The position numbers and the translations under genes are program-made. From Paramacrobiotus metropolitanus (lineage: Eukaryota; Tardigrada; Eutardigrada; Parachela; Macrobiotidae), in the NCBI RefSeq assembly GCF_019649055.1, contig NW_026570433.1:1-64000 (forward strand): a DNA stretch of 64,000 nt, written 5' to 3'. Shown piece by piece: positions 15,178 through 38,596 of the stretch; position 1 is the first letter of the stretch; each line of letters begins with the position of its first letter. Under the pieces are notes generated by a model. It had not been told where the DNA came from. It was given only the letters and a program-made list of their open reading frames with translations, and ran no database searches.

Positions 15178-15445
15178 AGTGACCTTTAACTTGAATTGAG
15201 TTGAGAAGTGACCTTTTGAGTTGAAACAAAGGAAAAGTGACCTTTGAGTTAATTGAGCTAGAAAGTGACCTTTTAGCTTAAATCGAGTTGAGAAGTGACC
15301 TTTTGAGTTGAGACAAAGGAAAAGTGACCTTTGATTAAAATTGAGCTGGAAAGTGACCTTTTAACCAGTTAGTACTGAGTTGAGACGAGCAGGAAAGTGA
15401 CCTTTGAGATCAGAAGTTGACCTTTGACATCGGAAAGTGACCTTT
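15178..15445 (+). repeat. 29-bp-spaced TGACCTTT array in leader
   Basis: TGACCTTT starts at 15180, 15209, 15238, 15266, 15296, 15325 and 15354 (spacing 28-30 bp), then 15398, 15418 and 15438. A higher-order unit of about 87 bp (GAGTTGAGAAGTGACCTTTT-type) is repeated about twice. Further copies follow to 15960, all in this orientation. There is no coding frame. The rest of 14620-15790 is leader without another recognised feature. Confidence 0.85.
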
Positions 15446-15809
15446 ACCGAAAGTTAACTTCCGATCTGAATTGACGAACGGTGACCTTTATCGAAGCGAA
15501 ATTGAACTGAATAGTGGTACAGCGATATCAGCAGCTGTAGGATTTCATTCACTAACGTGTTTGGAACCGTAAAAGCCGTTTCGAAGTTTTGTCCGAAAGT
15601 GACCTTTTAGGGCAAACCTCTCGAACTTTTTCCGAAAAAAGTGACCTTTATAAGGGACTTAGTCGAAATTTTTCAATCGAAAAGTGACCTTTACAAAAGG
15701 ACTTAGAAAAATTTCGAAGTACGAAGTGACCTTTAGGACAACTGAATAAACCATACAATAACGTGTGTGTGAGAACAATTGGCAGGAGCGTCCAAGTTAT
15801 CCGATCAAC

Positions 15810-18024
15810 ATGGACAAAGAGGAACCGACATCCACTAGCAGTCAGGGAAGCAGGAGCTCCCGGGGATCACAACAAGGCACAGTTGATCCTCATAAGAAGG
15901 AATACAAGTCGCTCGCGCGTCCAGTCGGACATGATAGACAGACCCGAGCGGCTGTGACCTTTGCAAGAAAGGACAGCAAAGGCAGTGATAACACATACCA
16001 AGTGGCGCTTGGAGCTATACAGAACGAAGAGAGCTCCAGCGGTGACGGAAAGGAAACTCCCGCGTCTACGGCGGGAGGCAATCCGATGAACCAGATAAAG
16101 GTCACCGGGGAGGAAAAACCCACAGAAAGGGGAGCGGAACCAGTTGGTACATCACAGTCGGATGCCACCACTGGCGGAATGAATGAGCAGGATACAAATG
16201 TGAACCTGGCTCAAGGGAAAATGAACAAGACAAAGGCCACGGAAGAGGAATTGGTTGAATTGGGATTGAGTGACATTTCACTGAATGACAAGGCGGCAGA
16301 AGATGACCTTTGGTCAACTCCAATGGTCTCAGATGAATCGAATGAGTCTTACTTCACGGATGACGAAGCGACGATGAATATGTCCTTTCAAACCGCGATG
16401 AAGGAGGCTGACCGTGCTGAAGGGATAACACCTTTCAAAGATATACCGGAGCACCTAATCGAACGGACACAAACAGGAAGGTCATCAATGTACGACCACC
16501 GTCACCTAACAGTCCACGTCAACTCTGAAGAGACGCGTGAAGGAGTTGGAAGAGGAACTCGAAGCCAAGGAAGGCCTGGTGACGAAAAGGAAACAGGAAT
16601 ATCAAAATCGGATAGGAACTCTGGATGCTCGTATCTATGAACTGGAGCAACAACAGGCCGACTTGGAAAGCGCAGCGGATGAATGGAAGATTAAATACGA
16701 GCGTCAAAGAACTCGCTGAAGAGTTACCTCAAAATGGTAGATGACAGAGAAATGGAAGGTCATCTTGCGGTTAGCGAGTTGAACGAGTATGTCAGAAGAA
16801 TCAGCTGAAAGGTCACGGCACTTAGCCGAATTGAAGGACGAGTGTGACCAGTTGCGTCAAAAGGTCACTGAAGCTGAAACTAAACGGGACGAATACGCGA
16901 CCAAATTCGCAGAGGTCAGCAGTTAACGACATTGCAACGGAGACGTTCAAACTAAGGAATGACCTGAAGCTACGGGAGGAGGCTGTCAGTACTCTGCAAC
17001 TAGAATCAAAGGTCATCAGGAACGGGTGGACGAAGCTGAGAAGTTGCGCAATGATGCAATCAAAGCGATGCGAGAGGCAAGAGACATCACAGCTACTGAA
17101 GGAGAACGCCTGAAAGAAGAAATCAAAAGGTCAACCAGGAGAATGAAAAGGTCACAGAAGACATTGAAAAGGTCACTAAGGAAGGACTCAAATGGCAGAA
17201 GGAAGCACGGCGACTGGACATAATGGTCACAACATTGGAGCTGAAGGACAAAGAGTGGCAACAACAGGTCGCTCAAAAGAGTCAGGAGATTGCAAAGCTG
17301 AACACTGACCTCGTCGAGATGACCACCACAGCATTGGCAAAAGATGATGAGTTGATCGCAATCAAGGATCAGCTGAGATCAGCCGCTGGGCAGTATCAGC
17401 AACTCGAAAATGAAACGAGTGAGCTGGTCGAGCACATCAAAAAGATGGAACAGGAAAATGAAAAGGTCACCCAGCAGGAGTCTTTTAAACTGCAGGAACA
17501 CTTACGAAAGGTCAACCTGGAAAATTCTGATCTAAAGAGAGAAAGAGAAGAACTTCAACTGAGAACTAAACGATTGGAAGATGAGAACAAGGCGCTCCAG
17601 GCGTCTAACAAGCACAAAGATGAACAACTCCTACAATACGGAGTTAAAACGGCAACAGTGGAGTCCCCCCCGCCCAGTTACAGCAAGGCGCATGAAACGG
17701 GCACGGGCAAAAGCTTCCACTTTGAGATGCCGCTACGAACCGGCACCGGTAAGGGGAGTGTTAAAAATGAAAGAGATGGCGAAAAGGTCAAAGACGACAA
17801 AGAGCCACCTTCGGAAAGTTACCCGCATATGAGTCGAGGTGATCCTTCACAATTTCCCCCGCACATTGAAACGAATGTGTTTATCGACGAAGGACGACGA
17901 GACAGACCCCCCAGCCGGCAGGAACGTCCAAGGAAGTCTCGTTATGGGAAGGCGCAACGAACTCACAATGATGAGAGTAGCGAAGAAGACGAGACCAGAG
18001 AGCAGCCAACACAGCGGTACAATT
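15810..18024 (+). CDS. Pre-gag ORF: long coiled-coil protein, frameshifted
   Basis: The protein starts MDKEEPTSTSSQGSRSSRGS. Its first about 240 codons are Ser/Thr/acidic-rich. From about 16530 to 17640 all the convincing sequence is heptad-like coiled coil (Glu, Lys, Gln, Leu rich), but it moves between frames near 16530, 16725, 16920, 17030 and 17220. The last long open part, 17223-18026, ends in a Pro/Arg/Glu-rich tail. It reads as one protein of about 730 residues broken by several one-base shifts. No enzyme motif is seen; a structural or scaffold role is a guess. Ty3/Gypsy elements normally have nothing here. AAAGGTCA motifs fall in it in all three frames. Confidence 0.6.
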
Positions 18025-18062
18025 AACAAAGGCACTCAATTCGATGGCTCGGAAAACACCTC

Positions 18063-19560
18063 ATGACCTTTGACGGCAGCCGCGACACTGTGAGTGGATG
18101 GACACGGTTGGTAAAAGAAACCCAAAGGACGTACCAGCTGACGGACGACCAAATTATGATTGAGATTGCTAGTGCGGTGAAAGGTCCTGCTAAAACTTGG
18201 TTTGAAGGCGAAAAGACATCGCAGCAGAAGACGGAATTGAATATTCAATAACTGAATGGATGGAGAAATTCAAAGATGAATATGGCGATAGAGACGAAGA
18301 AGTCTTAGGCTTACGTGAGGCCTATGCAAGGAAATTCGAACTCGGGAAAGAATCGCTTGATCAGTATTACCAGGCGATGATGCGATTTAAAGCAAAACGG
18401 ATCATCACAGAGAAACAAGCTGTGGGTTTCCTAATTGAAGGATGTAGAGGGGATAACGAACTCTACAAGGCATTGCGCATACAGAAGTGCAAGACGCCAA
18501 CAGACGTGAAAGACTTCTTCCGACATTGGGCCACTGGCGAAGAGAAATACAAGGCGCCAAAAGGTCAACGCACCCAGGATTACGCGACGATCCGCCAAGG
18601 TCAAGTTGAAAACGTGCCGCAACAGAGAATGGCAGCTGCGCCAGCCCAGCAGCCGGTTGAGTACCGCGTGGAGACTCCGGTCAGAGAGGTCACCGAAAAG
18701 GTGACCTTTATCGACAGTCAGACGGGGCAACCGATAACATACGCGATGGTGGCGGCGATACAGGCAGCAGCTCAAGTGAGACCAGTAGCCCAGAATGTGG
18801 CTCCACAGAATGTGGCTCCACAGAATGTGGCCCCACCTGCACCACAGAATATGGTCCCCATGAATGTCGGGTTACCACAACAAGGAGGGGGTAACGGTAA
18901 CTTTGGCGGAAATGGATATGGGAATGGAAACTGGAATGGAGGCCAAGGAAACTTTCAGAATCAAGGTCAAGGTCAAGGCAACTTTCAGCCAAATAGAGGA
19001 AACCAGAACTACCAGCAGAATCAAGGGTCACGGACAGAATTCAAGTTCCAAATGATTGACGGATGGGTGGCGAACAACGTTCAGATGTGCCAATACTGTA
19101 TGTATGGCAACCACCAGACCCAGGGATGCAAATTCGCCAACACACCACCGGAACAGAACCCAAACCTGTTTGCCTTCAACGAGTGGCAACGACTGCGCGG
19201 GCTCGGTGGTTGGCGCCAAGCGGTCGCAAATGGATATGACCTGATTACGCAATGGTACCAGGCGAAAGCGAACTTCCAGAATCAGCAAGGTAACGGAAAC
19301 TATGGAAATGGAAATGGGGCGGCCAAGGCGGCGGCTATCGCGGCGGTGGCTTCGGTCGCGGCGGCTTCAGAGGAAGAAACAGAGGCTTTGGCCGCGGAAA
19401 CTTCAGGGGAGGCCAGAACAATGGCGGCGGCCAAGGAAACTACCAACAGGGTGGTGGCCAGCCAAACGGAGGTGGCCCGGTGAACGAGCAAACACAAGGA
19501 CATGTGCAGGGCGCGCAACAAGGTGGAGCGCCGGTTCAGGGAAACGGGCAAGATCAGTAG
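18063..19560 (+). CDS. Gag: capsid plus CCHC zinc knuckle, frameshifted
   Basis: The N-terminal half has the Ty3/Gypsy capsid pattern: FDGSRDTVSGW, then a GPAKTWFEG segment and an ESLDQYYQAM segment. A one-base shift near 18250 separates the first 60 codons from the rest. After a Gln/Asn/Gly-rich linker with three tandem APQNV repeats, a CCHC knuckle (CQYCMYGNHQTQGC) is encoded at 19088-19129. A second shift near 19315, in a G run, moves the frame to an RGG-rich tail that stops at 19558-19560. Gag would form the particle and bind RNA. Both shifts lie in otherwise well-kept sequence, so sequencing error is a serious alternative to real decay. Confidence 0.8.
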
Positions 19561-19599
19561 GCACCGGTGAGCCTACTGATCGACCCGACCCTAAACCAC

Positions 19600-20951
19600 C
19601 GGATAAAAGGGAAAGGTCACCACTGCAGAATGGTACTGCAGTGAACGTGACCACTGCGACGGCTATATGGATGCCGTCAGCGAAAAAGCAAAGTGGACCG
19701 GCTATATGGATGCCGCAACCACAAGGAACGGCTAGATGGATGCCGCCACAGCAAAGAGAAACGGCTATATGGATGCCGTCATCACAAAAAGGAAATGGAG
19801 CGGCTATAGGGATGCCGTCACAGCAGCAGAATCAAAGGTCACCGCAGAATGGTACTGCGAGTGGAAATGTTCAAGTGGACAAAAGGTCACCGCAGAATGG
19901 TACTGCGAGTGGAAACGCGCAACGGGACCAAAGGTCACCGCAGAATGGTACTGCGAGTGGAAATTGTCGTGACGGTAGCGCGACACTGCGAACAGCGCAG
20001 CAAAATGAAAGGTCACCGTATTGCAGCGAAGAAGTGTTAGCGCAACGACGCGCACAACGAAATGCAAAGATTCGCCAGGCGCTACTGAATCAAAGGTCAC
20101 CACCGCAGAATGATACTGCAAGTGGAAACGGATGTCAAAAGACAAAATGTAATTGCGAACCAGTAGAAGTGGATGAGGAGCAACATGCGAAATTTCGCAA
20201 ATATCTGGCAGAGAAGGAGCCACGTTGCAGCTGCCACGTAACGGGGACAGGATATACGGAAACAGACATCCGACCCAGATTTTGCAGTTGCTTGGAAGAA
20301 GAAAGGTCACCTTCCGTAGGAAAAGTCCAAGTGAAAGGTCAAGGTGCAAGTGCGAACGCTAAAAGTCACGACGACAGCGTCATGTTGAAAGGTCAAGAAA
20401 CAGACTTGACACTGCGAACAGCGCAGCAAAAGAATAAGGAAATGGCACAAAATTCCGACGACTCACTTGTGGACGCAGTAACACTACAACAGAAAGAGAA
20501 GTGGCAAAAAGTGGCCTACAGACCGAACGGCAATCACGGGATGTGGGTACCCGTGACACCAAAAGCGAAACAGAAAGCGCGAATGTCACAAGAGGACTAC
20601 TGGGACATGCAACAGTTGCGAACGCAATGTGAAAGAAAGCGACTGGAAGAGTTGGTTACCGGGAAACCAGCGCAAGGGTCATCGAACCCAGTCCCAGTAT
20701 TCAATCCAGAGGAATATAAGAAGACATCTGCTGACTGGAATCATTCACGTAATGCTCCACCACAGGATAAACCGCCGAATTATGGAGAAAAAGTCCCCAT
20801 ACAAAAGCTGACAGGTGGCGGATTTGTCATGAAGCGCAACGAAAGGTCACAGGACTTAGCGCAAAATGAACAAAAGGACGGTCAAATGAAATGGCGCAAA
20901 CGAAACAGAGTAACGCAGTTGAAAGGTCACGGGACTTATCGGAGGCGCTGA
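19600..20951 (+). CDS. Repeat-rich ORF between gag and protease
   Basis: An open frame continues to 20951. It encodes about five AIWMP-type repeats, then four copies of RSPQNGTASGN (about 19830-19970 and 20095-20130), then a Cys-containing stretch (CNCEPV, CSCHVTG, CSCLEEE) and a Lys/Gln-rich end. The RSP in each repeat is the translation of AAAGGTCACC in one frame. Because the 45-bp repeat has no stop in any frame, it reads through as different peptides in the other two. No known domain was recognised. It may be part of a long Gag-Pol precursor. The start is uncertain. Confidence 0.5.
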
Positions 20952-20991
20952 AAAGGATGCCAATGACAAGTCACCAGCCCGAACAGACGGA

Positions 20992-23166
20992 ATGTCTTCA
21001 CAAATTGATCAGACGAAAACGAACAATGAAGTCTCCGCGAAGGTGATCGAATGGATGACCGAAAAAGGATATGACATGGTTACATATGAAAGGTCACCAG
21101 ATGAGATGAAAGATAGCGAAGAAGACGAATTGAAGCGAGCTGACCAAATAACAAGCGAAGTCATTCAGAAGCTGAGAGATAAGCGAAATGAAAACCGTAA
21201 AGAGGAATTGATCCATCAGACGATAAATGAAGTGACTAAAGGTCACATGAAGAGCACAAAAGCAAATGAGCAAGTGCAGAACGTGGAAAAGGTCATCGGT
21301 GATAAAATGGCTACAGAGAAGCAAACAAATAAAGAAAAGCCGCGAAAATATTACGACGTTCGGACCAACGTTCCACATAGGATTGATAAGCTGAGCGAGA
21401 TACTGAAAGGTCATAGCACTCCAGCAAAAGGACAAGTGCTTTCCGATATGGATCCGGGACCAGTATCGCTCATCCCTGTGAAATGTAAGATTCACACATT
21501 GAAGATTCAAAACGGAAAATTGCCTAAAAGAATTGAAGCATACACTCACGAAGTGAAAGTGGGAGACATAAAGGTCAACGCAATGTTGGACACCGGCGCT
21601 GAGACGTCGCTGATCAGCAAACCGTTCTGCGAGAAGAATGGACTCCACATGCTCCCATTGCCACCAGATAGACTGGTGAAGATTAACGGAATTAGCGGAA
21701 CGTCAGGATTCCTGGTGACGCACTACTGTGTAGCACCAGTGACCTTACGAAAGAAGACAAGCGAACATTCCTTCTACGTCCGACCGAAGTGTGACGACGT
21801 ACAAGTGTTACTGGGATTCGACTTCTTGGAAAAGAAATTTGTACTGTTGGATAATGAAGGTGAAGAAGAAAAAGAAGATGACCCAAAACCAGTTGCCAAA
21901 GTACAAGTCGGAAAGGTCACCGAACTTGCAAAACAGGAAAGGGCTCAAACTGTTAATAAAGCGCTAATCCCAGTACCAGAGGCACCGGGAAACGAAAAGA
22001 AAAAGATGACGCGAAAAGAATTGTCACCATTTGAGCAGTTGCAAGTAATCCAGCAGGAGATCGAAAAGACATTAAATCGGACCTTGCTGACACAGAAGGG
22101 AAGAGAAAAGGTCATCCCAGTACCAGAGGCACCGGGAATGACAAAAGTGCAGCAGGAAGAAACTATCCCAGTACCAGAGGCACTGGAAACGGAAAAAGAT
22201 AATGGAAATGTCGAAAAAGTTATCCCAGTACCAGAGGCACTGGGAAAGGAAGACAAAAGGTCACCAGCAACTGAGAACTTGGAACGAGAGCGTAATTCGA
22301 ACCTTTTCGAACCACGATCTGCTATCCAAAATGAAAGGCTACCAGATGAAGCCAAAGAGGAAGTAACAGAACGTGATTCTCAAAAGGAACCCTTTTTCGA
22401 ACCACGACCTGCTACCGAAAGGTCACCAACACTTGAAGAGATAATTGCCACACAGAAAGAAGCGGCAGTTACAGCGAAACAATCGCTTGTGCCAGACATG
22501 GAGTGGGCAAAGTCTATCCCAGTACCAGAGGCACTGGAAATAAAGACGGCTAAAGTGGGGAAGGATAAAAAGAGTGAAAGGTTACGAGTTTTGAAACGAA
22601 TAGTTGAAGAGGAGCAGATGTTTACAAGCGAAATCCGCGACAAGGCACTCGAACAATTGAAAGGTCACCGAACAGAAAAAGAACCAGAGGTCATTGAAAT
22701 ATCCTCTGAGGATAAAAGCGTGACTCCAATCGAATGTGAGGAAGATACCACAGTACAGGAACAGGTTAAACCTGAAGCGAGTCAGAGGACATTAACTCCA
22801 GAAGAACGAGCCGGGAGTTGTCACCACGGTTACTTTGAGGATCCGTGCAGGGTGCAACCACAATGGGAATGCGCGGAATGTTTTGAAAATGCCTCTCAAG
22901 ATGACCCTTCAGAATGGCCAAGATGTAATACCGCATTAGCAGACCTTAAAGGTCATGCCCAAAAGAAAGCGAAAAGCATCATGCGGACAAACGAAATGTG
23001 GAAACCACACATCGAACGGTATCATTGGAATAGATATCGAACGTGGTTGTCATGTGTGGAAAGTTTTATAATTGGAAGAGGCAGATGGCTAAACCATTGG
23101 TTGCAACGTGTCGGAGAAAGGAATCCAAGATCCTCTCGATCCGGTAGCAACAGAAAAGAGATTTGA
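20992..23166 (+). CDS. Aspartic protease-containing ORF (retropepsin)
   Basis: 724 codons from the ATG at 20992. A retropepsin-like domain lies at about residues 185-290: catalytic Asp-Thr-Gly with MLDTGAETSLIS (DTG codons 21589-21597) and the C-terminal LLGFDFL segment. The protease would process the Gag-Pol polyprotein. Residues 1-180 are charged and helical. After the protease comes a long tail with five IPVPEA repeats and two FEPR(P/S)A repeats, of a kind that recurs near 28070-28460. The tail ends in a short Cys/His/Trp-rich segment. The next ORF overlaps this one in another frame from 23108. Confidence 0.75.
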   Translation: MSSQIDQTKTNNEVSAKVIEWMTEKGYDMVTYERSPDEMKDSEEDELKRADQITSEVIQKLRDKRNENRKEELIHQTINEVTKGHMKSTKANEQVQNVEKVIGDKMATEKQTNKEKPRKYYDVRTNVPHRIDKLSEILKGHSTPAKGQVLSDMDPGPVSLIPVKCKIHTLKIQNGKLPKRIEAYTHEVKVGDIKVNAMLDTGAETSLISKPFCEKNGLHMLPLPPDRLVKINGISGTSGFLVTHYCVAPVTLRKKTSEHSFYVRPKCDDVQVLLGFDFLEKKFVLLDNEGEEEKEDDPKPVAKVQVGKVTELAKQERAQTVNKALIPVPEAPGNEKKKMTRKELSPFEQLQVIQQEIEKTLNRTLLTQKGREKVIPVPEAPGMTKVQQEETIPVPEALETEKDNGNVEKVIPVPEALGKEDKRSPATENLERERNSNLFEPRSAIQNERLPDEAKEEVTERDSQKEPFFEPRPATERSPTLEEIIATQKEAAVTAKQSLVPDMEWAKSIPVPEALEIKTAKVGKDKKSERLRVLKRIVEEEQMFTSEIRDKALEQLKGHRTEKEPEVIEISSEDKSVTPIECEEDTTVQEQVKPEASQRTLTPEERAGSCHHGYFEDPCRVQPQWECAECFENASQDDPSEWPRCNTALADLKGHAQKKAKSIMRTNEMWKPHIERYHWNRYRTWLSCVESFIIGRGRWLNHWLQRVGERNPRSSRSGSNRKEI

Positions 23167-24640: not shown

Positions 24641-24784
24641 AGAAAAATCAGCTTCTCGGCTACGTTGAGCCGTATGAACATATGGAGAATGTAAAGGTCA
24701 ACGCAGGGACAGTAAAGAACGTACTCGAAGACCCTGAGGTGGATGAGACAACGAAAGCTGAACTTAAAAGATAATCGAAAACCT

Positions 24785-27770: not shown

Positions 27771-27773
27771 AAA

Positions 27774-28169
27774 GTGGGCGATTTGGTACTTATACGACTT
27801 CCAAAAGATACTAAACAGGGGAAGAAAGAAAACCAGTCGGATTTCAAGTCGAAGTACGATAAAGTGTGGAAAATTCTTAGCTTCCCGCGAACAAACGAAG
27901 CGGAGGTCATCGAGCAGAATCCGAAGAAGGAAGCGGATCTAAAAGTGGTTTCCATTGATCGGTTAAAGCCGTGGCATCCGCCATTACCCGACGAGAAAGA
28001 TTCGCAACGAACGTTGAACGAAAAAGAAACGGAAGAAGCCGAGCTTGCTTCGAAAAATGGTACCAATCAATTTTTCGAACCACCTCTGCTACCTGAAAGG
28101 GAAAAAGTGGATAAGGGCGCAGAGCATACTCCTCAAAAGAACCTTTTTCGAACCACCTCCGCTACCTGA
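27774..28169 (+). CDS. Integrase C-terminal region and tail
   Basis: The frame continues integrase with the MGDLVLIRLP segment and a DRLKPWHPP ending, the usual SH3-like C-terminal module. After that come acidic residues and FFEPPLLPE-type repeats related to those behind the protease. Near 28130-28170 the frame is lost. From 28170 to 28818 four more TTTTCGAACCAC-type repeats are seen but no continuous frame of good quality. Confidence 0.65.
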   Translation: MGDLVLIRLPKDTKQGKKENQSDFKSKYDKVWKILSFPRTNEAEVIEQNPKKEADLKVVSIDRLKPWHPPLPDEKDSQRTLNEKETEEAELASKNGTNQFFEPPLLPEREKVDKGAEHTPQKNLFRTTSAT

Positions 28170-28818
28170 AATGGAAAAGAAAACAAATCTACAAAGAAAA
28201 GAGGAAGAAAGAAGAAAGAGGATAAGGATTTCGAAACAGCAGTCACAATCAAGTTGAACGCGGAGGCTGGTAATTTGGCAGAAAGGTCACTGGAACAAGA
28301 CAACGAACCGACCTCTAAAGTACCAGAGCGTACTTCCAAAAGGACCTGCAACAATCCTTTTCGAACCACGCACTGCTACCGAAGATAAGGATGACCTTTC
28401 GAAACAGCGTACGGACGCTGAGATGTCAGAGCGTGACCCGAATTTTTTCGAACCACGCACTGTTACCGGTAATGAGAATGACCTCATAAAAAGAGAGAAG
28501 AGGAGATAGAAGCGGTCAAATCAAAAGCTGAACAATTGGGCCGTGATATAGCGAAAGCAATTAACGAGCGGAAAGCCAAACAGAAGAAAAAGAAACCGAC
28601 CCCTACGGACTTATTGACCCAAAAGGCGAACCTGAGGATGCAGCCGAGAAAGAACTTCTTGATCGGATAACTAAAGGACGAGAGAACAAATAACCACATA
28701 GACATAAATAAGGGGTCACAATAAATTAAAAATAGGAGTCGAAAAGGAAAAAGAAAGGTCACCACTGTGCAAAAAGTTAACCTTTATTGTTTCGTTTTAT
28801 AGAAGGTAAGCACAGTTA

Positions 28819-30372
28819 ATGGACAGATTGGAACGACAAAACTCGGATAATTCAGACTCGGAAAGTATTGGAAACCCACTAAAAGCATCTACACCTATAA
28901 GAATGGAAGGTGAATACGGTTATGACACCTCATATGGTGAAGGATCAACGTCGTCAGTGGGAACGGCTCAGAATGAACCTGGAACAAGTCAAGGAGGTTA
29001 CTATGGCGGCCAGGGATATTACGTGTATCACGATCCAGGACAGCAGACGAGTTATCAGGACACGGTTAACTGGGTGCACCACGGCTCACCTGCCGGAACC
29101 CAGTATTCGGGACAAGCAACGGGCGCCCCTTATCAACCGTATCCAGGATCGTATACCCCACCGATGGGACCACCACAAGTAATGATGGGACCGGCAAGAA
29201 TGTTGATGCCGCCACCGCAACAGACCACACCGAGTCGATTTATGGGACATGGTGGATTCAGCGGAACTCCACCGCGATCACAAAGGTCATCTCCGATACT
29301 ACCGCCTTTTCCGGAGACGGGAGGCTTGGCACTATCGGACATAGGAGCGCCTCGTATGAGGACACCGCAGCAACTGGGTGTGCAGCGTCTACATCGCAAT
29401 TCGCCAAACAGAGGAAATAGGCGACCGAGAGGAATTTTACCGTCACTGGGACCTAACTTGGACGAGACTGGACCAGATGGTTTACGGCTTACGCCTCCAG
29501 GTGAACCGTCGATACATGCATACGCACCGAAGCTTCCTTTGGATCTGAGAGAGGACGATGCACGCTTAAATATCATTCCGGATAAGAACGACAAACTGAC
29601 AGAAAAGGATTTAGAAGCTATCCGGGAATTAAACCGAAAGTGTCGTGAACTTTACCGAATTCATATGCGAGTTGAAGATGAACACGCATGGTATGGAAAG
29701 CTGATTAGCCTGGAAGCTGTCATCAAACCATGTCATATCGCGCTGAAGGAAAAAACGAAACTGATCGAAAAAGAGCGCAGGGAATACGCGATAAAAGTTG
29801 CATCGATGTGGCAATACCACCCGTCGCTAAACGGTAGACCATGGCCTTCGACTATCGAGAAGATTCTTAGGTACCTTAAAGTGTTCCCGGAGGCGAGACA
29901 GATGCCGACTACCAGCGCCGAGGGACCATCTAAATCCATGGTTGAAAAAGACGCCCCAGTCGACGAAATGACGGACGAGGACCTTTTGGCCACAAAGCAG
30001 AAGATTGATGCCGTATTAACGGAACGAGCAGAAAGGTCAAGGGCCAGCTCGGTTGCAGGATCAGGACGTGGACGTACTAGTTCGGTCACAGAACCATCCA
30101 GTGGCACCACGAAGAGTGGAAAAAGAGTGAGATCACCGACGACAAGCCCAAAAGAAACTGATAAGAAAGGGCAGCGAACAAAGAAGACCACAGAAAGCAA
30201 AGCAACGCCAGCTGAGCCGGCAAAGCCACAGGCCCCGATTCCAGTGGGTAGAAAGAGTGTACCACCCACGCCGAAAGGAACGGAAGGTCAGATTCGATTC
30301 CCGAAGTGTAGAAGTTTCACGGCCAAGTACACTGGGAAGATCATAGAGAACGAAAGGTCACTGCACGAATAG
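28819..30372 (+). CDS. Accessory ORF A (post-pol), low-complexity N-terminus
   Basis: 517 codons with an intact frame. Residues 1-150 are Gly/Tyr/Gln/Pro/Met-rich and prion-like. Residues 235-345 are a predicted helical, charged domain. The C-terminal 130 residues are Ser/Thr/Lys/Pro-rich and basic. No signal peptide, membrane segment or recognised enzyme motif. The position is where errantiviruses carry env, but this protein is not an envelope. A low-complexity plus basic architecture suggests condensate-forming or nucleic-acid binding behaviour; that is inference. The ORF ends in another frame from the next ORF, 25 bp on. Confidence 0.7.
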   Translation: MDRLERQNSDNSDSESIGNPLKASTPIRMEGEYGYDTSYGEGSTSSVGTAQNEPGTSQGGYYGGQGYYVYHDPGQQTSYQDTVNWVHHGSPAGTQYSGQATGAPYQPYPGSYTPPMGPPQVMMGPARMLMPPPQQTTPSRFMGHGGFSGTPPRSQRSSPILPPFPETGGLALSDIGAPRMRTPQQLGVQRLHRNSPNRGNRRPRGILPSLGPNLDETGPDGLRLTPPGEPSIHAYAPKLPLDLREDDARLNIIPDKNDKLTEKDLEAIRELNRKCRELYRIHMRVEDEHAWYGKLISLEAVIKPCHIALKEKTKLIEKERREYAIKVASMWQYHPSLNGRPWPSTIEKILRYLKVFPEARQMPTTSAEGPSKSMVEKDAPVDEMTDEDLLATKQKIDAVLTERAERSRASSVAGSGRGRTSSVTEPSSGTTKSGKRVRSPTTSPKETDKKGQRTKKTTESKATPAEPAKPQAPIPVGRKSVPPTPKGTEGQIRFPKCRSFTAKYTGKIIENERSLHE

Positions 30373-30396
30373 TCGATAAGAAAACGAACAAAGAGA

Positions 30397-31200
30397 TTGA
30401 CTCGTATAATCCCCTCGCGGATAGGTCAGTCAAGGATGCCATTGGAAAGAGTCAAAACGATAGTCAATGAGGCGCTACAGTTTATTCCTCCAGAAGAACG
30501 TCATAACCCAAGAGTTATCGTTCAGATGATGAAGCACGTGGTATCTAAAGTCGCAACCGAAGAGGATGCATGGATCCGTATCAAAGTGGGCACAGATGAT
30601 GACCACTTGGCATATACATATACAACGGATGGCAAACTGTTGATCAAAGAGAGAACTCGCTCAAAACCGACGGCGGATCCAGACCCGAAGAAACGATCGT
30701 CAGATGATTATGAGTCGGTCCTGAGATATACAGATGCGACAAGCAGAAAGGTCACCCTCAGACTTTTCGGTGGTAATGGAGAAGCTGTGGAAACCATAAC
30801 TGCAGTGATAGTCGATCCAATAACAGGAGACCCGGTTCCATATGCCCCATGGGATGTGTCAGAAGAGAGCGCCCGAAACGCGAATCAGGCAGCGATTGAG
30901 CAGTTATGGGATCTGATACCTGAGAGCGACCGAACAGACGCTGTGGTTCAAGCGAGTACACTGATCAGCATGATGCGGCATCGAGCGGAAATCGATGGAG
31001 CACATTTCCGACTCACAAGACGAATGGAAGACGGATCGTACAAAACGGTATTTTACGACGCTAAGAAGAACCCTTTGTGGGAGGTCGCCTCACAGGGATC
31101 TCCGAAAGAGACAAGACACTTGGAAATTCATCCCCCGGCACAAGAAGGCGGAGCCGGAGAGACGGAAGAGGCGCCAGGGCACGTCGGCAAATCTAACTGA
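30397..31200 (+). CDS. Accessory ORF B (post-pol)
   Basis: 267 codons with an intact frame. Two related halves are visible: each has an LIPE/FIPPEER-like helix pair followed by a strand pattern with a W/FR segment and Lys at the end (around residues 25-75 and 175-220), suggesting an internal duplication. No known domain. Just beyond its stop, another frame carries a Cys/His cluster (CPGSHEHLQC and CGYC, 31235-31300) and acidic residues that run into the next ORF, so B and C may be one gene broken by frame shifts. Confidence 0.55.
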   Translation: MTRIIPSRIGQSRMPLERVKTIVNEALQFIPPEERHNPRVIVQMMKHVVSKVATEEDAWIRIKVGTDDDHLAYTYTTDGKLLIKERTRSKPTADPDPKKRSSDDYESVLRYTDATSRKVTLRLFGGNGEAVETITAVIVDPITGDPVPYAPWDVSEESARNANQAAIEQLWDLIPESDRTDAVVQASTLISMMRHRAEIDGAHFRLTRRMEDGSYKTVFYDAKKNPLWEVASQGSPKETRHLEIHPPAQEGGAGETEEAPGHVGKSN

Positions 31201-31229
31201 AACCGGAGGGGCCAGACGTTCTCTACAAA

Positions 31230-33718
31230 GAGTGTTAGAGATTGCCCAGGAAGTCATGAGCACCTTCAGTGTGATGAACCAAACTGTGGCTATTGTAATC
31301 CACCTGGTGACGACGAACCAGAGTCGGAAGACGAGGACCCACCTGAGGAAGAAGGCTCAGACGAAGAAACGGCCGACAAGCATAAAAAGCCCTTAAAGGT
31401 CAAGCCCTCAAAAGTCAAACCGAGAAAAGCGCCCAGATTGGAAGAGGCCATGAACCGCGACAAGGTTAAGAAAGGCGATTTTCTCAAGAAACGACGGGAG
31501 GAAGAAGATAAGAAGAAACAACAGGAGGAAGAAGATAAGAAGAAAAAGAGCGGTGATGAAAGCGATAGCACAAGCACCGGAAAGAAGAAAAAAGATGGAC
31601 CAGCGTCTCATGATGTCGAGATATTGGACGAGTCAGTTGGCGAAGTTGAAGAAAGGTCATCGACACCTACGAAGTCAAAGAAAGTCATCCAATCAGCTAC
31701 ATCAAAAGCAAAGGTCACTGAGCCCGAGTCGCCAAAACCCCCAAAACAAGCCGAAACAAGCTGTCCCCATTGTAATGTCCGCATCCACGATAAAAGAGCG
31801 TAAGGCCAAGCAAGGTCGTGAGAAAGCGAAACGGGAGACGTCGCTTGAATCGGAGGAATCGGAAGCGAGTCTACCGAGCACTTCGACAGTCAGTGCGAGG
31901 TCGTATACGGATTCGAAGACAACCCGGTCAAGGACCACAGAACCAAGAAGCCTAGCGGAGGCCTTGGATAAAGGGCAAAAAGCAAAGAGCGAGCCCGTTA
32001 AGACGAAAGGGAAGGTCAAAACAGCCATGAAAGTTGATGCAATGGCAATGATCAATTACGCTGAACCAGATGGAGAGAGTGAATTGGACTTTACAGAAGA
32101 CGAGGAATTTGATGATCCGGACGATGACAGTTTGAACACGGTCGATGAAATAATCAAAGCGTATAACGGAGCGGAGAAGAATTTCACACGAATAAGAACA
32201 GCATCGGTGACATCCAAATTTAAATCAGGCCTGAAGACATATCTCAAGAAACAGCGTCGTAGCTTTACTAAACAGAAGTTTGACGTCGTACTGGAATTCG
32301 CACGGAACGCAGGAAAACTTATCCAGAAGCACCCGAGTTTCTCGTATGAGGCCAAGTTGTTCAGACCAGCCAGTTCGGATAAGGCGCTGACAACTCCGAA
32401 TGAAGCGGTCCCAATGCGAGTGGAAAGGGCAATCGCGGGAATGACAAGCCCATTAGGATCAACGAGTCACCGGATTAGCCAATACATCAACGCAGTTTGG
32501 AACGACGGAAATGGAATGATAAAGGAGATCGACACGGCAACCGAACGCGTATTGCCAAAGTTGATTAAACAGAACGTCCTTGCCACGACAAACGCAAATA
32601 AAGGACACCCGATCCGATACACGAGAGTTGGTCTAATACCACCGGAAAGACAGATCCACTGTAATATGTCCGACAGTCAGGATATGGAAAAGGTCACAGT
32701 TTCATCGAAGACAAAAGGCCCAATGGACTCGGAATCGGGAAGTGATGACGATACTACAACAACGGCTCCTTCTGGACCTGCGACAGAAAAAGACGAACAG
32801 CCGAAAGGTCAAGAGACATCTGGAACTACCGCAGAAGATCAACCGAAAGGTCATGAGACTTCAGATAAACGGGAGAAAGAAAAGGTCATGCTCCCGATGG
32901 ATAAGGCAGCGGCAGAAGCTGAAGCGGATTCGGCGCGCCAGGTGTTTCACAAATCACTGTTCATACCATTAAAGGACGTCTTTGAGAAGGAACGATCGAA
33001 GTCGGTCGGCGATTTAAAAGGTCAAGAGACTTTGCCACAGGAGGAGAAGAAGACAGCCGAACCAAAATCGGCGGGGTCATCATCAGGATCACTGGCAAAG
33101 CTGAGGATCGACGAGACAGCGACGGCTGACCCAACGGACTCGACATCCTCCCAGAAAAGTAGCGGTACACCGGCTAAGGAGGCTACAGATTACATGTTAG
33201 GGCCGGCATTGGACGTGAATAATCGTACATGGAACGAAGTCCAAGCTGCACTCCAGATTATTCGGGAAAAAGAAATGCTTGGGACAGACCTAAAAAGACA
33301 AGTGGCAATAAATACGAACGGAAGGTCGTCACTCAACATGACTGAACGAGCTCTGAAACGAGCATATAAAGAAGGAAAGCTGGGATGTAAATACAACAAA
33401 GACAACAAAGTCGTCTACTACCTTCCGAAACAGGGCACGGAACGAACGCCCAGACTGAAAATGGAATTGGAGGCCTGGAAGATAGCCATCACAGACGTGG
33501 CTTTGGACGCCATTGGCGGTACCAATGGAGCGTCATGGAATGACCTTTCAAACTTCATGGCCGTCAATTACGAATTGGGAGATTTGAATATTGAAAGCGA
33601 TAAAGAGTGGATTAAGAACGCCGTTGAAGCCTTGATCGCGGACGAAGTGCTTCATATTAAGCCAGATGGCCGAATCGATTTCAAGCCGTATAAACCATCG
33701 ATGAAAGAATCCGAGTGA
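31230..33718 (+). CDS. Accessory ORF C (post-pol), winged-helix-like C-terminus
   Basis: The open sequence runs in one frame to about 31800, through a Lys/Glu repeat EEEDKKK and a CPHC zinc-like motif, then in a second frame to the stop at 33718. Long Ser/Glu/Lys-rich linkers follow. Around 32140-32650 is a folded-looking charged domain. At 33180-33700 are two consecutive helical modules, each with a LKRQV- or WNDLSNFM-type helix followed by a basic strand turn, resembling winged-helix or linker-histone-type modules; this assignment is tentative. Function unknown; DNA binding is a reasonable guess. AAAGGTCA motifs appear as KGH, KGQ, KVT and ERS. Confidence 0.55.
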
Positions 33719-34057
33719 ACTAATCGAGTGTAATATGCAGCGAGTAATGAACCCTGCATATTACAGAAAAAGCATAAAACAGTTTAAAACGAAAGCGAAA
33801 AGTGTTACGAAAGGTCAACTGAAAGCAGTACTAGGACTAATAGAAAAGGTCACAGTAGTCAGAAAGTGCTGATAACGTGAGAAAGGTCACCACGTTACAG
33901 TGATAGAAAAGGCAGCAGGAGCTAGGAAAGTCTCAGCTCAGTAACGGAATAGGCGTAAAAATGATAGAAAAGCCTTGATATGGATAGGAAATGGAAGGAT
34001 TAACGTGGAAAAGTTAATATGACGGATTGTTTTATAATTACAGATTGAAGCGGAAAA
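33719..34057 (+). other. Non-coding gap between accessory ORFs
   Basis: 339 bp without a reading frame. Rich in GATAGAAAAGG and AGAAAGGTCA-type words; three AAAGGTCA copies (about 33809, 33846, 33881) lie in it. It could be a promoter or splice region for the last ORF. Confidence 0.5.
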
Positions 34058-36799
34058 ATGGCACAGAAAGGTCAAGCCACTCCTAAACGTACGGGAACGG
34101 CGGCAGACATCGACCAGTTTACGGGCTACAATCCGAAATGTCCGGACTGCTTAAGGAACAACAAAAAGGTTGACAAGAAATTCCCTTGCTACACTTGTAT
34201 TCACAAGCTGGAAGACCCACATGCCGTCACGCTTGTTGGGATCATGGAAGCGAAACGAGGGAACTTGGACGTTTTTCGAAATCTCATAAGCGCAAGAAAT
34301 TACGGCAGCATCCCAGTGGAAGAGCGAATGCTACTCGAGGATCGCTACCGGGAAGCGATCCGGAACAACGAACCGGGTTGGGATGACACCTTGGAGCCGT
34401 TGAAGTGTCCACATACAGACGCGTATCGGAAGAAATTCGCAGAGGACCAGGAGAAGATGCGAGTTCAGCAAATGGAAGACGAACTCCGCGCGAAAATTAA
34501 TGCGGAAAATAAGAGGGCAAGTGAACAGGCCGCACGAGAGGCGTTGCCCAGTACGTCGGGTTTAGCTGCACCCACGGGCATGGCCAGCCTTAAGGAAGAT
34601 GAAATGCAACTCGTACGACAGTCGCTTATCATTCAAATTGAAACGTTAACGAAAGATCCAGCTGCTATGTCAGACGAGGTATTCAAAATGCTGTTGCGGG
34701 AGAAGAAACGACTTCAAGACGGGTTCGCGCCGGCACCTTACATAAAGAAGGAAGTCGAAAGACGTATGGATGACCTACGTAGATCTCGCCGAACCGAAAG
34801 CGATGTACTGCAAGCACTCAGAAGCTTCAAACGGGATGAAGGTTTCATCCGACCTCGATCGCCTCCGCATAGAGAAAGGTCACGCGGACATTCACGTGAA
34901 CATGAACGGACTTCTGAACGACAGAGAGAAAGGTCACGCGAACACTCTCGTGAAAGGACACGTGACTACCGTAATGAAAGGTCACGTGAACGTTCTCGCG
35001 ATCGAGATTACCGCGGCGGACGAGGATGGGTGCGCCATGGAGACGAAGTTACAGAAATGAGTATTCAAAGGAAAATCGATACGGCAAAGATCTTGGCAGC
35101 CACAAGAGGACGTGAAGAGAAACGGCGTGCGGAGACATTCCGTACAGAACCTGAAAAGGAAGGGCATCAGGTGCCGATGGGAGTCGCATTCCGGAATCGC
35201 AACGTCAGGATGTCAACACCCGAAAGGTCATGGGATAAGAGACGTGAACATACGCGAAACCGAACGCCTGACCCACAGGATAAAAGATGGCAACAGAGAG
35301 CCGCATTTTATGCGACCTTTGACTCGGGCGCAAGCAAAAGGTCATCAAGCACTGAACGGGAAGATTCACCTCCAAAATATCAGCGGGTGGAGTCAGTGGT
35401 TCACGTTGTGGATCCAATTGTGAGCGCCGTACAAGAAGATGACGCGATGGAAGGCACCAGCTCGATTGCGGAAACGTCTCAAGAGAACGTGACCCATCGA
35501 CGAAATGTAATTCTGGATAGTGACCTCCAACTGGAACAACCGGCGAGTAACGAACCGTTGCAGCCTGAGTCAGGAGAACAACGTGAACCAGAAGGTCAAC
35601 GAGAACCGGATAATCATCGCCGGGCTGATCAGCGACAGAACTCCAGATTTGACAACCGACGTCCTGAAAGTATCGACATGGAATACAAGACGACTGATAT
35701 TGATGAGCAAACGGTCGAAATTTGTCGATACTTTGGACTTGAGCCGGATTCGGTTGAAGCCAACAAAATTGGCACAATTCTGAGACAGTTGAGCCAATTC
35801 CTACTTGACTCGGGTTATGCGAGAGAGATTAAACAAGGAGTGGAACAAGGACTTTTCCGTCAGTTATTCATCCACCGCGATTCAGTACGGGACTGTTATC
35901 TCCCTATCCGACGGAATGGGCTACACAGCCTGGTGGATTTGAGTTTATTGGATGTACCGCTGGATACAACTGACCCAATCGGGATGACACAGTTCTATTA
36001 CAGAGACTATCCCGAACGACAAGAATATGTGGCTCAGTTTGTCTTACGACATGTGAATCCAGCTTTCAAGTTGCTTGCAGCAAGGGCATCGATAGGACTA
36101 CAGGTGGATCCTAAGGACTATGCCGCAAAAAGGATGGGGCAAAAGGTCTTTGCTGCGAGACTGGCACATTACAAGACACAGAATCAATTGGTGTCTAATA
36201 CCATGAAGGACGACATTCCACCGTTCTTCCGAGCTCATGTCGCTAAATTGGGACAACCGATGGAACATATCAGCATAGCGCATACGGCTCGAAAGGCGCT
36301 GAAAAAGTGTAAGACACGAATGGAAAAGGGCAACTTGACACAGCGCCACGCATCCCAAGTAGAAGAAAGGATTAATAAGATTAAAGATTCTCTGGGAAGC
36401 GACTACGTCGAACCGGTGGACGGAATCGAAACTTACATTGATGAATTCTTAGTGAAGAAAAGTGACCGTCGTCCAGACCGTGCGCCTAACCAGATGGGAC
36501 GACGCGGCATCCGAAACCAACAGCTGCGGGATAATCTCGCCGACGTGCGGCGTCGATTGGCGGAAGACCCTGATAACCGAAGACTGCGACTCGAAGGAAA
36601 CGACGCACGCCATCGACTTGAGGCGGTTAAGCGAAGTCGCCAAGGTAAAGGTCGGGGCCAGCGCGAAGTTGACCCGACAAAGGTCATGGAAGTTGACTCG
36701 ACGGAACCAGTTGACCGCACTTCCGACCAAAATCAACCGAAAAGCGCTAAAAAACGCCCGCCGAGAGATGGCGAGGGCGATTCAAATGAAATGGAATAG
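34058..36799 (+). CDS. Accessory ORF D (post-pol), zinc-ribbon plus RS-rich protein
   Basis: 913 codons, the longest intact frame of the element. Residues 20-60 contain CPDC and CYTC, a likely zinc ribbon. Residues 260-330 are an arginine/serine-rich stretch with RERSR and REHSRE repeats, like SR splicing factors. The middle is acidic, and residues 540-800 form a large, probably folded helical domain. The tail is very basic (RRGIRNQQLRDN and further Arg/Lys). No enzyme motif recognised. The RS-like part partly arises from AAAGGTCACG motifs translated as ERSR, so it should not be over-read. Possible RNA-binding or splicing-related role; inferred only. Confidence 0.65.
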   Translation: MAQKGQATPKRTGTAADIDQFTGYNPKCPDCLRNNKKVDKKFPCYTCIHKLEDPHAVTLVGIMEAKRGNLDVFRNLISARNYGSIPVEERMLLEDRYREAIRNNEPGWDDTLEPLKCPHTDAYRKKFAEDQEKMRVQQMEDELRAKINAENKRASEQAAREALPSTSGLAAPTGMASLKEDEMQLVRQSLIIQIETLTKDPAAMSDEVFKMLLREKKRLQDGFAPAPYIKKEVERRMDDLRRSRRTESDVLQALRSFKRDEGFIRPRSPPHRERSRGHSREHERTSERQRERSREHSRERTRDYRNERSRERSRDRDYRGGRGWVRHGDEVTEMSIQRKIDTAKILAATRGREEKRRAETFRTEPEKEGHQVPMGVAFRNRNVRMSTPERSWDKRREHTRNRTPDPQDKRWQQRAAFYATFDSGASKRSSSTEREDSPPKYQRVESVVHVVDPIVSAVQEDDAMEGTSSIAETSQENVTHRRNVILDSDLQLEQPASNEPLQPESGEQREPEGQREPDNHRRADQRQNSRFDNRRPESIDMEYKTTDIDEQTVEICRYFGLEPDSVEANKIGTILRQLSQFLLDSGYAREIKQGVEQGLFRQLFIHRDSVRDCYLPIRRNGLHSLVDLSLLDVPLDTTDPIGMTQFYYRDYPERQEYVAQFVLRHVNPAFKLLAARASIGLQVDPKDYAAKRMGQKVFAARLAHYKTQNQLVSNTMKDDIPPFFRAHVAKLGQPMEHISIAHTARKALKKCKTRMEKGNLTQRHASQVEERINKIKDSLGSDYVEPVDGIETYIDEFLVKKSDRRPDRAPNQMGRRGIRNQQLRDNLADVRRRLAEDPDNRRLRLEGNDARHRLEAVKRSRQGKGRGQREVDPTKVMEVDSTEPVDRTSDQNQPKSAKKRPPRDGEGDSNEME

Positions 36800-36975
36800 T
36801 GCTGATCGTTAGGATCACACTATTAAAAGGACGTCTACGGCATTTGTCGGTACGTCACAAAGATTAAAATGGTGTTGTATAAAGGGCGCGACACGTGACA
36901 TGTTAACATTAACTGTATTTGTGCATTTGTTGTTTGCAGCGTTTATAGCACAGAATTGCCTAAAAGAAATCATGT

Positions 36976-37438
36976 GGAATATCTATTGGGGTTGAAATTG
37001 ATTCGGTCTATAAAGCCGGCCCCAAGGGAGTTGCTACGGCAGTTAGCCGGCCCTCCTCTCTAAGCGACTCAGTGTTATAAATGCACAAGAGAGACGACGG
37101 TAATCAAGCCGGATCTCTTGAATACGAAACGGGGCCACAAGCGGCGAAAAAGAGAAAGACAACAGGTGGAATATTGATGAGGTTAACTTAATGCGGCAAT
37201 TAGCCGGCCTCATTAGAGTTGTTACGGTAAACTATGCCGGCACTCTTTTCAAGCGATTCAGTGTTATAATTAAAACGAGAAAAACTACGGTAATCAAGCC
37301 GGATTTCTCGTACTAACGTAAGCCACAAGCGGCGAACAAGAGTAAAAGATTAAATGTGGAAATTTCATGGGGTAAACTTAATGCGGTAACTAGCCGGCCC
37401 CATCAGAGATGTTACGGTAAACTTGCCGGCACTCTGGC
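36976..37438 (+). repeat. About 190-bp tandem repeat, 2.4 copies, in 3' tail
   Basis: Units begin at about 36976, 37168 and 37358. Each contains AGCCGGCC, a GTTACGGTAAACT- or GTTGCTACGGCAG-like block, a CAGTGTTATAA block, GGTAATCAAGCCGGAT and GCCACAAGCGGCGAA. Inverted GCCGGC pairs within a unit could fold. It is untranslated; the role may be 3' RNA structure or export, unknown. Confidence 0.8.
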
Positions 37439-38243
37439 CGCTCGAGGCATACTGAAGTTGGATGTGCGACGGAAAGGTCAAACTGCAAGTTTTACCAGGG
37501 AGGCAAGCGAAGAAGTGCTTGAAAGCCGCAGAAAATTGGCTAAGTTCCTCCATGACCTTTAATGGAAGTTTTGACGAGTGGGATGACCTTTGGGATCATC
37601 AATTGCCCACTAGAGTCACCGTATCGGAATTTAAGTCGCATGACCTTTGGGACCATTAACCCAAAACGAGTCGCACATCTCAACGGATCATCTCAACAAA
37701 GGATGACCTTTACTAGGGAGGAAGCGAACTACGCTTGTCTTCATTGACGTCCCTCCATGACCTTTATTGGATCTCATTTTGAAGTCGTACAATTGATACG
37801 CACCATATTCCAAAGATGAAGCAGTATTTCTAAGTCGTACTTGATACGCACCTGATTCTCAAAGCGGATTGTGATGAAAGTCGCATTACGGATGCGCGAA
37901 ATTGCTCAACAGAGCGGAATGGATTAAAAGTGCGGAAAACGGTGGACAGGACCTGTGACCTTTGCGAGTCAGAAATGGAGGATCCTAGTCTACAATTTGA
38001 TTAATACTTTTGTTGATCTGTTACTGTTGATCTGTTCCTAACGATTTGATAGTATTTTTATAATTGGATCTCTTTATTTCACATTGTATTAAATGGAATT
38101 GTGCCTTTATGGAATTGATGTGATAAAATGGATTAAGAGAATTTGATGTTTTTGAGCACACACAGACACTCGGCGACCGTCGTCTTCTCGTGGATTCGGG
38201 AGTGTGTCCAGCCTCACAGGAGCTCGGCATCCCCCCAGAGGCA
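37439..38243 (+). other. 3' untranslated tail of the giant element
   Basis: No convincing reading frame. It contains six TGACCTTT copies (37554-37965), all in leader orientation, and a direct repeat AAGTCGTAC..TGATACGCACC at about 37782 and 37832. No clear polypurine tract was found before the 3' LTR; CCCCCCAGAGGCA precedes it. Confidence 0.6.
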
Positions 38244-38596
38244 TGTGAGACCGGGATCACTAGCGTTCACGTCAGTGGCGCTAGGCGCTACGCCTTTGGA
38301 TTATGGCCTGTGTTGTGTCTCGCTTCTGATTGGCTTGTGTTTTGTTAGTGGGCGCGGCATAGCACGTGCTGCACAGCGTTGCACGCTGTTGAATGGGCTC
38401 CACGCTTTACGATCGAGCTGCGCCGATCAGTGTTGATTTTCTGTTGTCGGAATTTTCAATATTATTAAAAGTCAGCGATTACGGTGCGACGTTTTGTGTT
38501 TCCGCATAGCTCGCGACCCAGATCGTGTCGCTCACTCCACGGGATAGATTCCGTTTCTGTCTCCGTCTGTGGATCCATTCTGGATCTACCATTAGA
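38244..38596 (+). repeat. 3' LTR
   Basis: 353 bp, same sequence as 13947-14299 as far as could be read base by base. It is followed at once by the GTGT target copy. Confidence 0.95.

Follow-up and report, generated by a model that had tools for sequence, protein, structure and literature searches.

The 24 650 bp retroelement lying within the window (the whole 64 000 bp stretch of Paramacrobiotus metropolitanus DNA that was analysed) carries an 8 bp word, AAAGGTCA or in the opposite orientation TGACCTTT, and comparison of its copies shows that purifying selection in the replicating lineage preserves this word whichever way it is oriented and whatever the reading frame, with codon choice and peptide sequence giving way to it.

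Organization of the element

The element is bounded by two identical long terminal repeats (LTRs) of 353 bp each, at 13947..14299 and 38244..38596 on the forward strand, as are all features given here, and the original prediction of a 24.65 kb element is thereby borne out. Its polymerase domains and LTRs make it a giant Ty3/Gypsy-type LTR retrotransposon, and a target-site duplication, GTGT, flanks it on either side. The LTRs start with TGTGAG and end with TTAGA, departing from the TG...CA rule, to which exceptions are known, and membership of Ty3/Gypsy therefore rests on the polymerase. A putative primer-binding site, TGGTAGCAGAG (14300..14310), which we take to fit the initiator tRNA-Met, adjoins the 5′ LTR; no clear purine tract was seen before the 3′ LTR. 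The sense strand is purine-rich.

The leader contains an array (15165..15764) of 15 sites, every one TGACCTTT, which lie partly within 29/87 bp and 20 bp tandem repeats. The gag-like region that follows (15765..20951; 26 sites) consists of several ORFs, in which a coiled coil and a CX2CX4HX4C knuckle were recognized by eye. An aspartic protease (Pfam PF13975/PF13650) with linker ORFs occupies 20952..24997 (21 sites), and reverse transcriptase (RT), RNase H and integrase (PF00078, PF17917, PF17921 and PF00665) occupy 24998..27939 (7 sites), the order PR-RT-RNase H-integrase being that of Ty3/Gypsy. The 3′ accessory ORFs (28819..36799; 23 sites), which span about 8 kb and in which third codon positions are most variable, match no Pfam family above the cut-off; a weak linker-histone-like (winged-helix) match at 31553–33718 falls below it. 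The 3′ untranslated region (36800..38243) has seven sites, six TGACCTTT and one AAAGGTCA, and a 190 bp tandem repeat.

Abundance of the word

The stretch from 15178 to 37970 contains 89 copies of AGGTCA and 41 of TGACCT, where 85–90 and 35–40 had been predicted, and 69 copies of AAAGGTCA and 33 of TGACCTTT. These 102 8-mer sites in an interior of 23.9 kb correspond to 42.6 per 10 kb, against 2.0 per 10 kb in the flanks of the element (8 sites in 39.35 kb). The rest of the window was correctly described as much sparser, but the estimate of about ten hexamers there was too low (5 AGGTCA and 13 TGACCT); likewise, saturation between the LTRs holds for the interior as a whole but not for the leader's first 865 bp, which, like the LTR, have no site. 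Genome-wide, the word occurs 42 562 times and the reversed word 15 522 times.

In 200 dinucleotide shuffles of the interior the two hexamers averaged 6.6 and 4.3 copies, AAAGGTCA averaged 0.87 (maximum 3) and TGACCTTT 0.34 (maximum 3), and the two 8-mers are the two most over-represented in the interior relative to order-2 and order-3 Markov expectation. Sixty-four of the 102 sites fall within 11 ORFs (17 757 nt), and 1000 synonymous-codon shuffles of these ORFs yielded 6.3 copies of AAAGGTCA (maximum 16) and 0.26 of TGACCTTT (maximum 3), so that the observed 55 and 9 lie well above anything seen in the codon-aware shuffles. All three reading frames are used, as had been claimed, AAAGGTCA occurring 14, 24 and 17 times in the frames encoding KGH/KGQ, ERS/QRS/KRS and xKVx respectively. 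Sites in the leader and 3′ untranslated region are nearly all TGACCTTT (21 of 22), whereas those in the coding region are mostly AAAGGTCA. Sites in the body are randomly spaced and show no 10.5 bp phase (CV 1.0; Rayleigh P 0.20 at 10.5 bp), and helical or regular spacing was rejected.

Selection on the word

Rather than drifting freely between copies, sites are conserved beyond expectation (744 of 848 site-by-copy cells against 465 expected), which speaks for selection. The per-base difference between copies is 1.4–3.9 % within the 8-mer and 5.4–15.4 % (mean 10.7 %) in the 16 bases flanking it on each side; the constrained unit is exactly these 8 bp. Third codon positions inside the word have changed in 24 of 1439 cases where 243.8 are expected from the same codons outside it, a tenfold reduction, and fourfold-degenerate sites differ at 1.3 % within the word against 17.1 % elsewhere. 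Synonymous sites are thus conserved between copies, and this constraint, together with the codon-aware shuffles, upholds the proposal that it is the DNA word and not a peptide that is kept.

Among body sites AAAGGTCA is conserved in 485 of 530 cells and TGACCTTT in 102 of 112 (controls, 0.57 and 0.55), and since the two orientations are equally conserved, the word is probably read as double-stranded DNA. Leader-array sites are conserved in 94 of 136 cells, compared with 0.418 for local 8-mers. When segments from 55 element pairs were binned from young to old, the ratio of motif to flank divergence was 1.19, 0.52, 0.30, 0.29 and 0.31 (the final bin, which had just one site, was left out). Segments less than 2 % divergent, which hold only 16 differences, show no constraint and deeper ones show it about threefold, and selection therefore acts on the replicating lineage.

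Copies, relatives and other elements

Ten further copies of the element have a similar density of sites; copies are mosaics of segments that differ in their identity to the reference element. In relatives at 61 %, 63 % and 80 % identity the word is unchanged, and at 61–63 % it is kept while the positions of the sites turn over. A shorter subfamily is without the 3′ ORFs, of which its members C331 and C143 retain remnants only, yet the interiors of these two have 98 and 103 sites against 102 in the reference element. In this subfamily 16–27 sites are packed into a segment of 1.2–1.5 kb in eight of eight loci (picked from 24), and this array is almost all AAAGGTCA, complementary to the leader array. 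A fixed number of sites per element is not a rule, since locus L007 has 12 sites where the reference element has 28, and counts in shortened copies are 73 over 18.1 kb and 88 over 19.0 kb.

The word is not a general Gypsy habit, a possibility that was rejected because in other Gypsy elements, at five loci hand-picked from 150 RT matches, five stretches within or next to pol contain one site in 13.2 kb. A different Gypsy element, L008, has five AAAGGTCA and one TGACCTTT packed into 0.42 kb upstream of an open gag-like frame, and an inverted-repeat element with a word cluster (L005) is present at three loci; these two and L007 came from a scan for pairs of nearby words, and their clustering is thus subject to ascertainment. 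Saturation over the whole length is seen, among the elements compared, only in this element's family.

Identity of the word and its possible reader

Nuclear receptors differ in the 5′ extension that they prefer, AA being favoured by NR4A, CA by FTZ-F1 and T at position −3 by ERR. In 686 distinct contexts A occupies position −2 in 80 % and C in 6 %, and T occupies position −3 in 24 %, a pattern that supports the predicted NR4A/NBRE form of the word rather than that of FTZ-F1 or ERR; sequence by itself leaves room for other receptor specificities. An excerpt of PMC6912296 identifies AAAGGTCA as the NBRE, to which NR4A binds as a monomer or homodimer. A search for a host receptor orthologue, suggested at the outset, did find an NR4A gene in P. 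metropolitanus (L050, L067), whose DNA-binding domain best matches NR4A1/NGFI-B structures (E-value 2.1e-39). A later exon of this gene encodes the A-box (C-terminal) extension, which contacts the NBRE. The host's nuclear receptors are many (63 zf-C4 matches, exon pieces counted).

We tentatively favour, as an explanation somewhat short of probable, a dispersed platform for a host receptor of NR4A (HR38/NGFI-B) type, or for a factor with the same specificity, that promotes transcription. The element would have turned its whole interior, genes included, into about 100 monomeric nuclear-receptor sites, and the receptor would bind integrated copies, the sites being densest in the leader, whose array follows the LTR promoter. 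Through their dose over the full length, the sites could then open chromatin, counter silencing and, in cells with an active receptor, drive or sustain production of the unusually long transcript, and more sites per copy would mean more progeny. That the word is kept even within protein genes suggests an element that lives off a host gene switch. Against this, an ordinary enhancer would not need sites throughout 24 kb of coding sequence. We also note, as observations that do not favour a receptor, that the LTR itself is without a site and that spacing in the body is random. An extended version, which we consider possible but rather more doubtful, is that about 100 monomer sites of one host receptor, to which the element's own proteins have been bent to fit, are a dose that was rebuilt in a fresh array once the accessory genes were lost, each copy being a hormone-type-responsive domain of chromatin that resists silencing.

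Both a binder encoded by the element and a motif acting in RNA appear less likely than the host receptor. The former, unlikely in our view, would be a gag- or 3′-ORF-derived protein that coats word-bearing copies and removes silencing or marks a replication step, much as VANC21 binds a dense 9-base motif in its own family (PMC5735166, excerpt). The roughly 8 kb of accessory ORFs, with their variable third positions and single weak linker-histone match, and the restriction of whole-length saturation to one family when other Gypsy stretches have 1 site in 13.2 kb, are consistent with such a protein; a single-sequence structure prediction for one element protein was of low confidence (mean pLDDT 39). 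However, the target motifs of VANC6 and VANC21 differ (PMC5735166, excerpt), whereas the word is unchanged at 61–63 % identity and coincides with a known host receptor site, and since C331 and C143 keep their 98 and 103 sites without the 3′ ORFs, the binder would need to be provided in trans or be part of gag-pol. An action in RNA, as a repeated packaging, localization or splicing-control site or through base pairing between untranslated UGACCUUU and coding-region AAAGGUCA that compacts the 24 kb RNA, is less probable still. The opposed orientations of untranslated and coding sites (21 of 22 TGACCTTT in the former, mostly AAAGGTCA in the latter) would give many complementary 8-mers, as would the nearly pure AAAGGTCA array of the shorter subfamily. 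A protein site on single strands would be kept in one orientation, though, and here both are conserved alike in the body and the rarer is at least as enriched (9 against 0.26, compared with 55 against 6.3); pairing would also permit joint drift to other words, yet the word is the same at 61–63 % identity.

Favouring of the word by the element's own copying, through template switching, gene conversion or biased inclusion and by analogy with the uptake words of Neisseria and Haemophilus, seems improbable to us: the mosaic copies make frequent recombination likely and the word is found in every frame and both orientations, but a specificity of 8 bases would point to a sequence-reading protein anyway. 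There is next to no likelihood of an ordinary by-product of strand composition, codon usage or repeated peptides (KGH, ERSP, KVT), to which the purine-rich sense strand and the word copies within tandem repeats might have pointed; it was rejected on the dinucleotide and synonymous shuffles, the use of three frames and the third-position constraint, and other Gypsy elements have almost none of it in their pol stretches.

Comparison with known systems

The Su(Hw) insulator of Drosophila gypsy is located in the leader of that element. It gives a Ty3/Gypsy element an array of host zinc-finger sites, 12 in 460 bp (PMC9576066, excerpt). The element described here has 15 leader sites and a further 87 over the next 22.5 kb, and its word is that of a nuclear receptor, not of Su(Hw). 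The DNA uptake words of Neisseria and Haemophilus are also short words spread over coding sequence irrespective of frame and orientation, but they serve bacterial DNA uptake and not a retroelement. In the Arabidopsis VANDAL21/VANC21 system a protein likewise reads a dense short word that marks one family, with rapid gain and loss of the word, but it lies mainly in non-coding tandem repeats and its reader is an element protein (PMC5735166, excerpt), whereas here the word is in coding sequence too (64 of 102 sites in ORFs) and a host receptor is the leading candidate for its reader. Burro of planarians and Ogre of plants share the giant Ty3/Gypsy size class, the internal region of Burro reaching 25 kb with extra domains, and an excerpt of PMC6431247 mentions no saturating word for them; the extra giant-Gypsy domains that it names (including BIR, MATH, ankyrin and BCL2) were unmatched in the ten ORFs scanned here. 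The NBRE (structure 1cit, NGFI-B) is the same exact 8 bp that is under constraint here, but its known sites have been described from target-gene promoters (PMC6912296, excerpt) and not, as here, about 100 in one mobile element. A literature search, outside which most subscription papers lay, found no retroelement saturated with the AGGTCA half-site: an excerpt of PMC12539977 describes the NBRE and not a word-saturated element, and an excerpt of a tardigrade repeat paper (PMC11071193) concerns two Hypsibiidae and does not name Paramacrobiotus.

Along this whole mobile element a regulatory DNA word appears to outweigh the protein code, and selection on it can be measured site by site. As a clean system the family lets one ask what number of sites for one factor a long element needs, whether silencing is opposed by their dose, and in what way a genome is shaped by an orphan receptor. 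Each full-length copy brings about 100 receptor-type sites to a new locus, and the family could therefore rewire the targets of a host factor.

Structure and copies of the giant element

The element, a Ty3/Gypsy-type LTR retrotransposon of 24,650 bp (13947–38596), has two LTRs of 353 bp, identical to each other, and is flanked by the target-site duplication GTGT; a Pfam search finds aspartic protease, reverse transcriptase, RNase H and integrase domains in Ty3/Gypsy order; elements of this type, giant Ty3/Gypsy, are already known. The ORFs appear to be maintained as proteins, since the third codon position is the one that differs most between the window and other copies in all 11 ORFs tested, and the accessory ORFs 3′ of pol (28819–36799; about 8 kb) match no Pfam family above cut-off. 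Searches of the genome (533 contigs, 169.8 Mb) returned at least 40 LTR matches (the best 40 of 300 candidates scored), many of them paired with 17–24 kb between, and reverse transcriptase–integrase matches that, among those listed (55 of 2,120 candidates scored), share 88–100 % protein identity. Contig 5 of the genome has two DM domains 28 kb apart, which, if contig and scaffold numbers correspond, fits the pair of DMRT paralogs that a study of Paramacrobiotus metropolitanus puts on scaffold 5, in a region of over 30 kb (PMC11191345).

The LTRs (13947–14299 and 38244–38596) end in TTAGA, not CA, and no clear polypurine tract lies ahead of the 3′ copy. Weak linker-histone (winged-helix) matches, below the Pfam cut-off, occur in an ORF inside the element (31553–33718) and in another about 17 kb downstream (55586–56407). 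Astacin protease domains flank the insertion on both sides (12226–12705 and 43802–44452, minus strand), perhaps as a local astacin cluster. At the far end of the window (63254–63991), a weak match to the integrase C-terminal domain possibly marks another LTR element.

Selection on the word

An 8-bp word, AAAGGTCA (TGACCTTT in the opposite orientation), which has the same sequence as the NBRE, the NR4A monomer site, is under selection in this element. The interior contains 69 copies of AAAGGTCA and 33 of TGACCTTT, vs 0.87 and 0.34 expected from dinucleotide shuffles, and the ORFs contain 55 and 9, vs 6.3 and 0.26 from synonymous shuffles; the 24 one-mismatch neighbours total 54 in both orientations, vs 33 expected. 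Ten other copies, represented by 20 stretches, have 28–61 sites (either orientation) per 10 kb, or 932 in 200 kb, a total in which sequence common to overlapping stretches enters twice, and the reversed-word control occurs 0–5 times per stretch.

Alignment of the window to the copies gives 744 exact site-cells out of 848, vs 465 expected from neighbouring 8-mers. The eight bases of the word differ at rates of 1.4–3.9 % and the 16 bases on each side at 5.4–15.4 % (mean 10.7 %), the lone standout among these being the second downstream base (5.4 %). Third codon positions inside the word have changed in 24 of 1439 cases, where the same codons outside the word predict 243.8. Peptides encoded by the word are over-represented (ERS 18 vs 2.7, KGH 8 vs 0.6, KVT 11 vs 1.7) and mostly spelled by the word itself (ERS 16/18, KGH 7/8, KV[TKINM] 17/25), and thus the word bends the proteins.

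Turnover of sites and a shorter subfamily

Sites are both retained and newly placed in diverged relatives. One at 61 % identity has 10 sites vs 12 in the corresponding part of the window, five common and five newly placed, with 4.7 % of other 8-mers shared; one at 80 % shares five of six sites and 15.7 % of other 8-mers. In a third (63 %) site density is lower, with 12 sites vs 28 in the corresponding part of the window, of which eight are common (other 8-mers, 5.9 %).

A shorter subfamily, represented by copies on contigs C331 and C143, has interiors of 17.0 and 17.4 kb, and the 3′ ORFs are gone except for remnants. They are replaced by 1.5-kb segments without a long open frame (L036:7228–8687 in C331, 23 sites; L038:7136–8658 in C143, 27 sites), with one site per ~40–50 bp. 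The ORF loss is drawn from the sequences of these two copies and from C450, where the LTR, reverse transcriptase and segment coordinates leave no space for the 3′ ORFs. Related segments, outside the part common to full-length copies, occur at at least 24 loci (40 of 124 candidates scored), and the eight arrays examined, those of C331 and C143 included, have 16–27 sites each in 1.2–1.5 kb. Whole-copy totals are 98 (C331) and 103 (C143), vs 102 in the longer window element; that shortened copies make up their site number is suggestive only, since two others have 73 and 88.

The word in other elements

Short clusters occur beyond the giant family, although those described here are ascertained, having been found through a search for two nearby words. 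A distinct Gypsy element on C101, whose matched sequence recurs at C141, has six AAAGGTCA and one TGACCTTT within 3 kb; ahead of a gag-like open frame, the first four AAAGGTCA are spaced 32–41 bp from one another. Three loci (C16, about 789.5–792.5 kb; C108; C6) have an inverted-repeat element that BLAST does not match to the giant one; its units are ~100 bp long, several with two TGACCTTT 10–11 bp apart. In other Gypsy elements, sequence within or next to pol, sampled at five loci, has one site in 13.2 kb (none in 2.2 kb for the C101 element), and saturation along the whole length is thus seen only in the giant family.

Across the whole genome AAAGGTCA occurs 42,562 times, vs 15,522 for the reversed word. 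Among 100 sites listed for the first 832 kb of contig 1 (plus strand), 75 fall outside a dense cluster at 202–222 kb, at about twice the genome-wide control rate.

A candidate reader and its possible role

Over 686 distinct contexts, position −2 of the word is A in 80 % and C in 6 %, and position −3 has no T preference. C at −2 is the FTZ-F1 form and T at −3 the ERR preference, and the context appears to favour an NR4A site. NR4A receptors bind AAAGGTCA either as a monomer or as a homodimer (PMC6912296). Counting pieces of exons, there are 63 zf-C4 matches in the genome, and 26 stretches that take in some of them were read. One host gene encodes an NR4A DNA-binding domain split between two exons; its best structure matches are NR4A1 6lc1 and NGFI-B 1cit (E-value 2.1e-39), and the following exon contains VVRTDSLKGRRGRLPTKPK, which we take to be the NR4A A-box extension. 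By our own reading the host also has FTZ-F1, ERR (two), COUP-TF and RXR (two).

Both orientations are kept alike in the element body, where 485 of 530 AAAGGTCA cells (control 0.57) and 102 of 112 TGACCTTT cells (control 0.55) are conserved, so the simplest view is that the word is recognised in double-stranded DNA; TGACCTTT is at least as enriched as AAAGGTCA relative to synonymous expectation, and the preponderance of AAAGGTCA among coding sites reflects the purine-rich strand. There is strong indication that the word acts as DNA, and a role in RNA seems to us improbable. We propose that an NR4A-type receptor would bind along the integrated copy, most densely at a leader array of 15 sites (15165–15764) about 0.9 kb downstream of the LTR, and that binding may raise and sustain transcription of the 24-kb unit and oppose silencing. 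The binder might instead be encoded by the element itself, in the manner of VANC, which is unlikely but deserves consideration, and replication drive favouring the word is a very unlikely explanation. VANDAL21/VANC21 and the gypsy Su(Hw) array are among the nearest systems in mode of action; in the open-access literature we found no description of a giant element saturated through its genes by a selected factor site.

Divergence in the word was compared with that in its flanks for 55 element pairs. With rising segment divergence, the word-to-flank ratio is 1.19 (<2 %; imprecise, with 16 differences in 1270 bases), 0.52, 0.30, 0.29 and 0.31, a last bin with one site being omitted. Inserted copies thus seem to decay neutrally while constraint falls on the replicating lineage, which argues for a role of the word in the element's own life cycle and against its use by the host.
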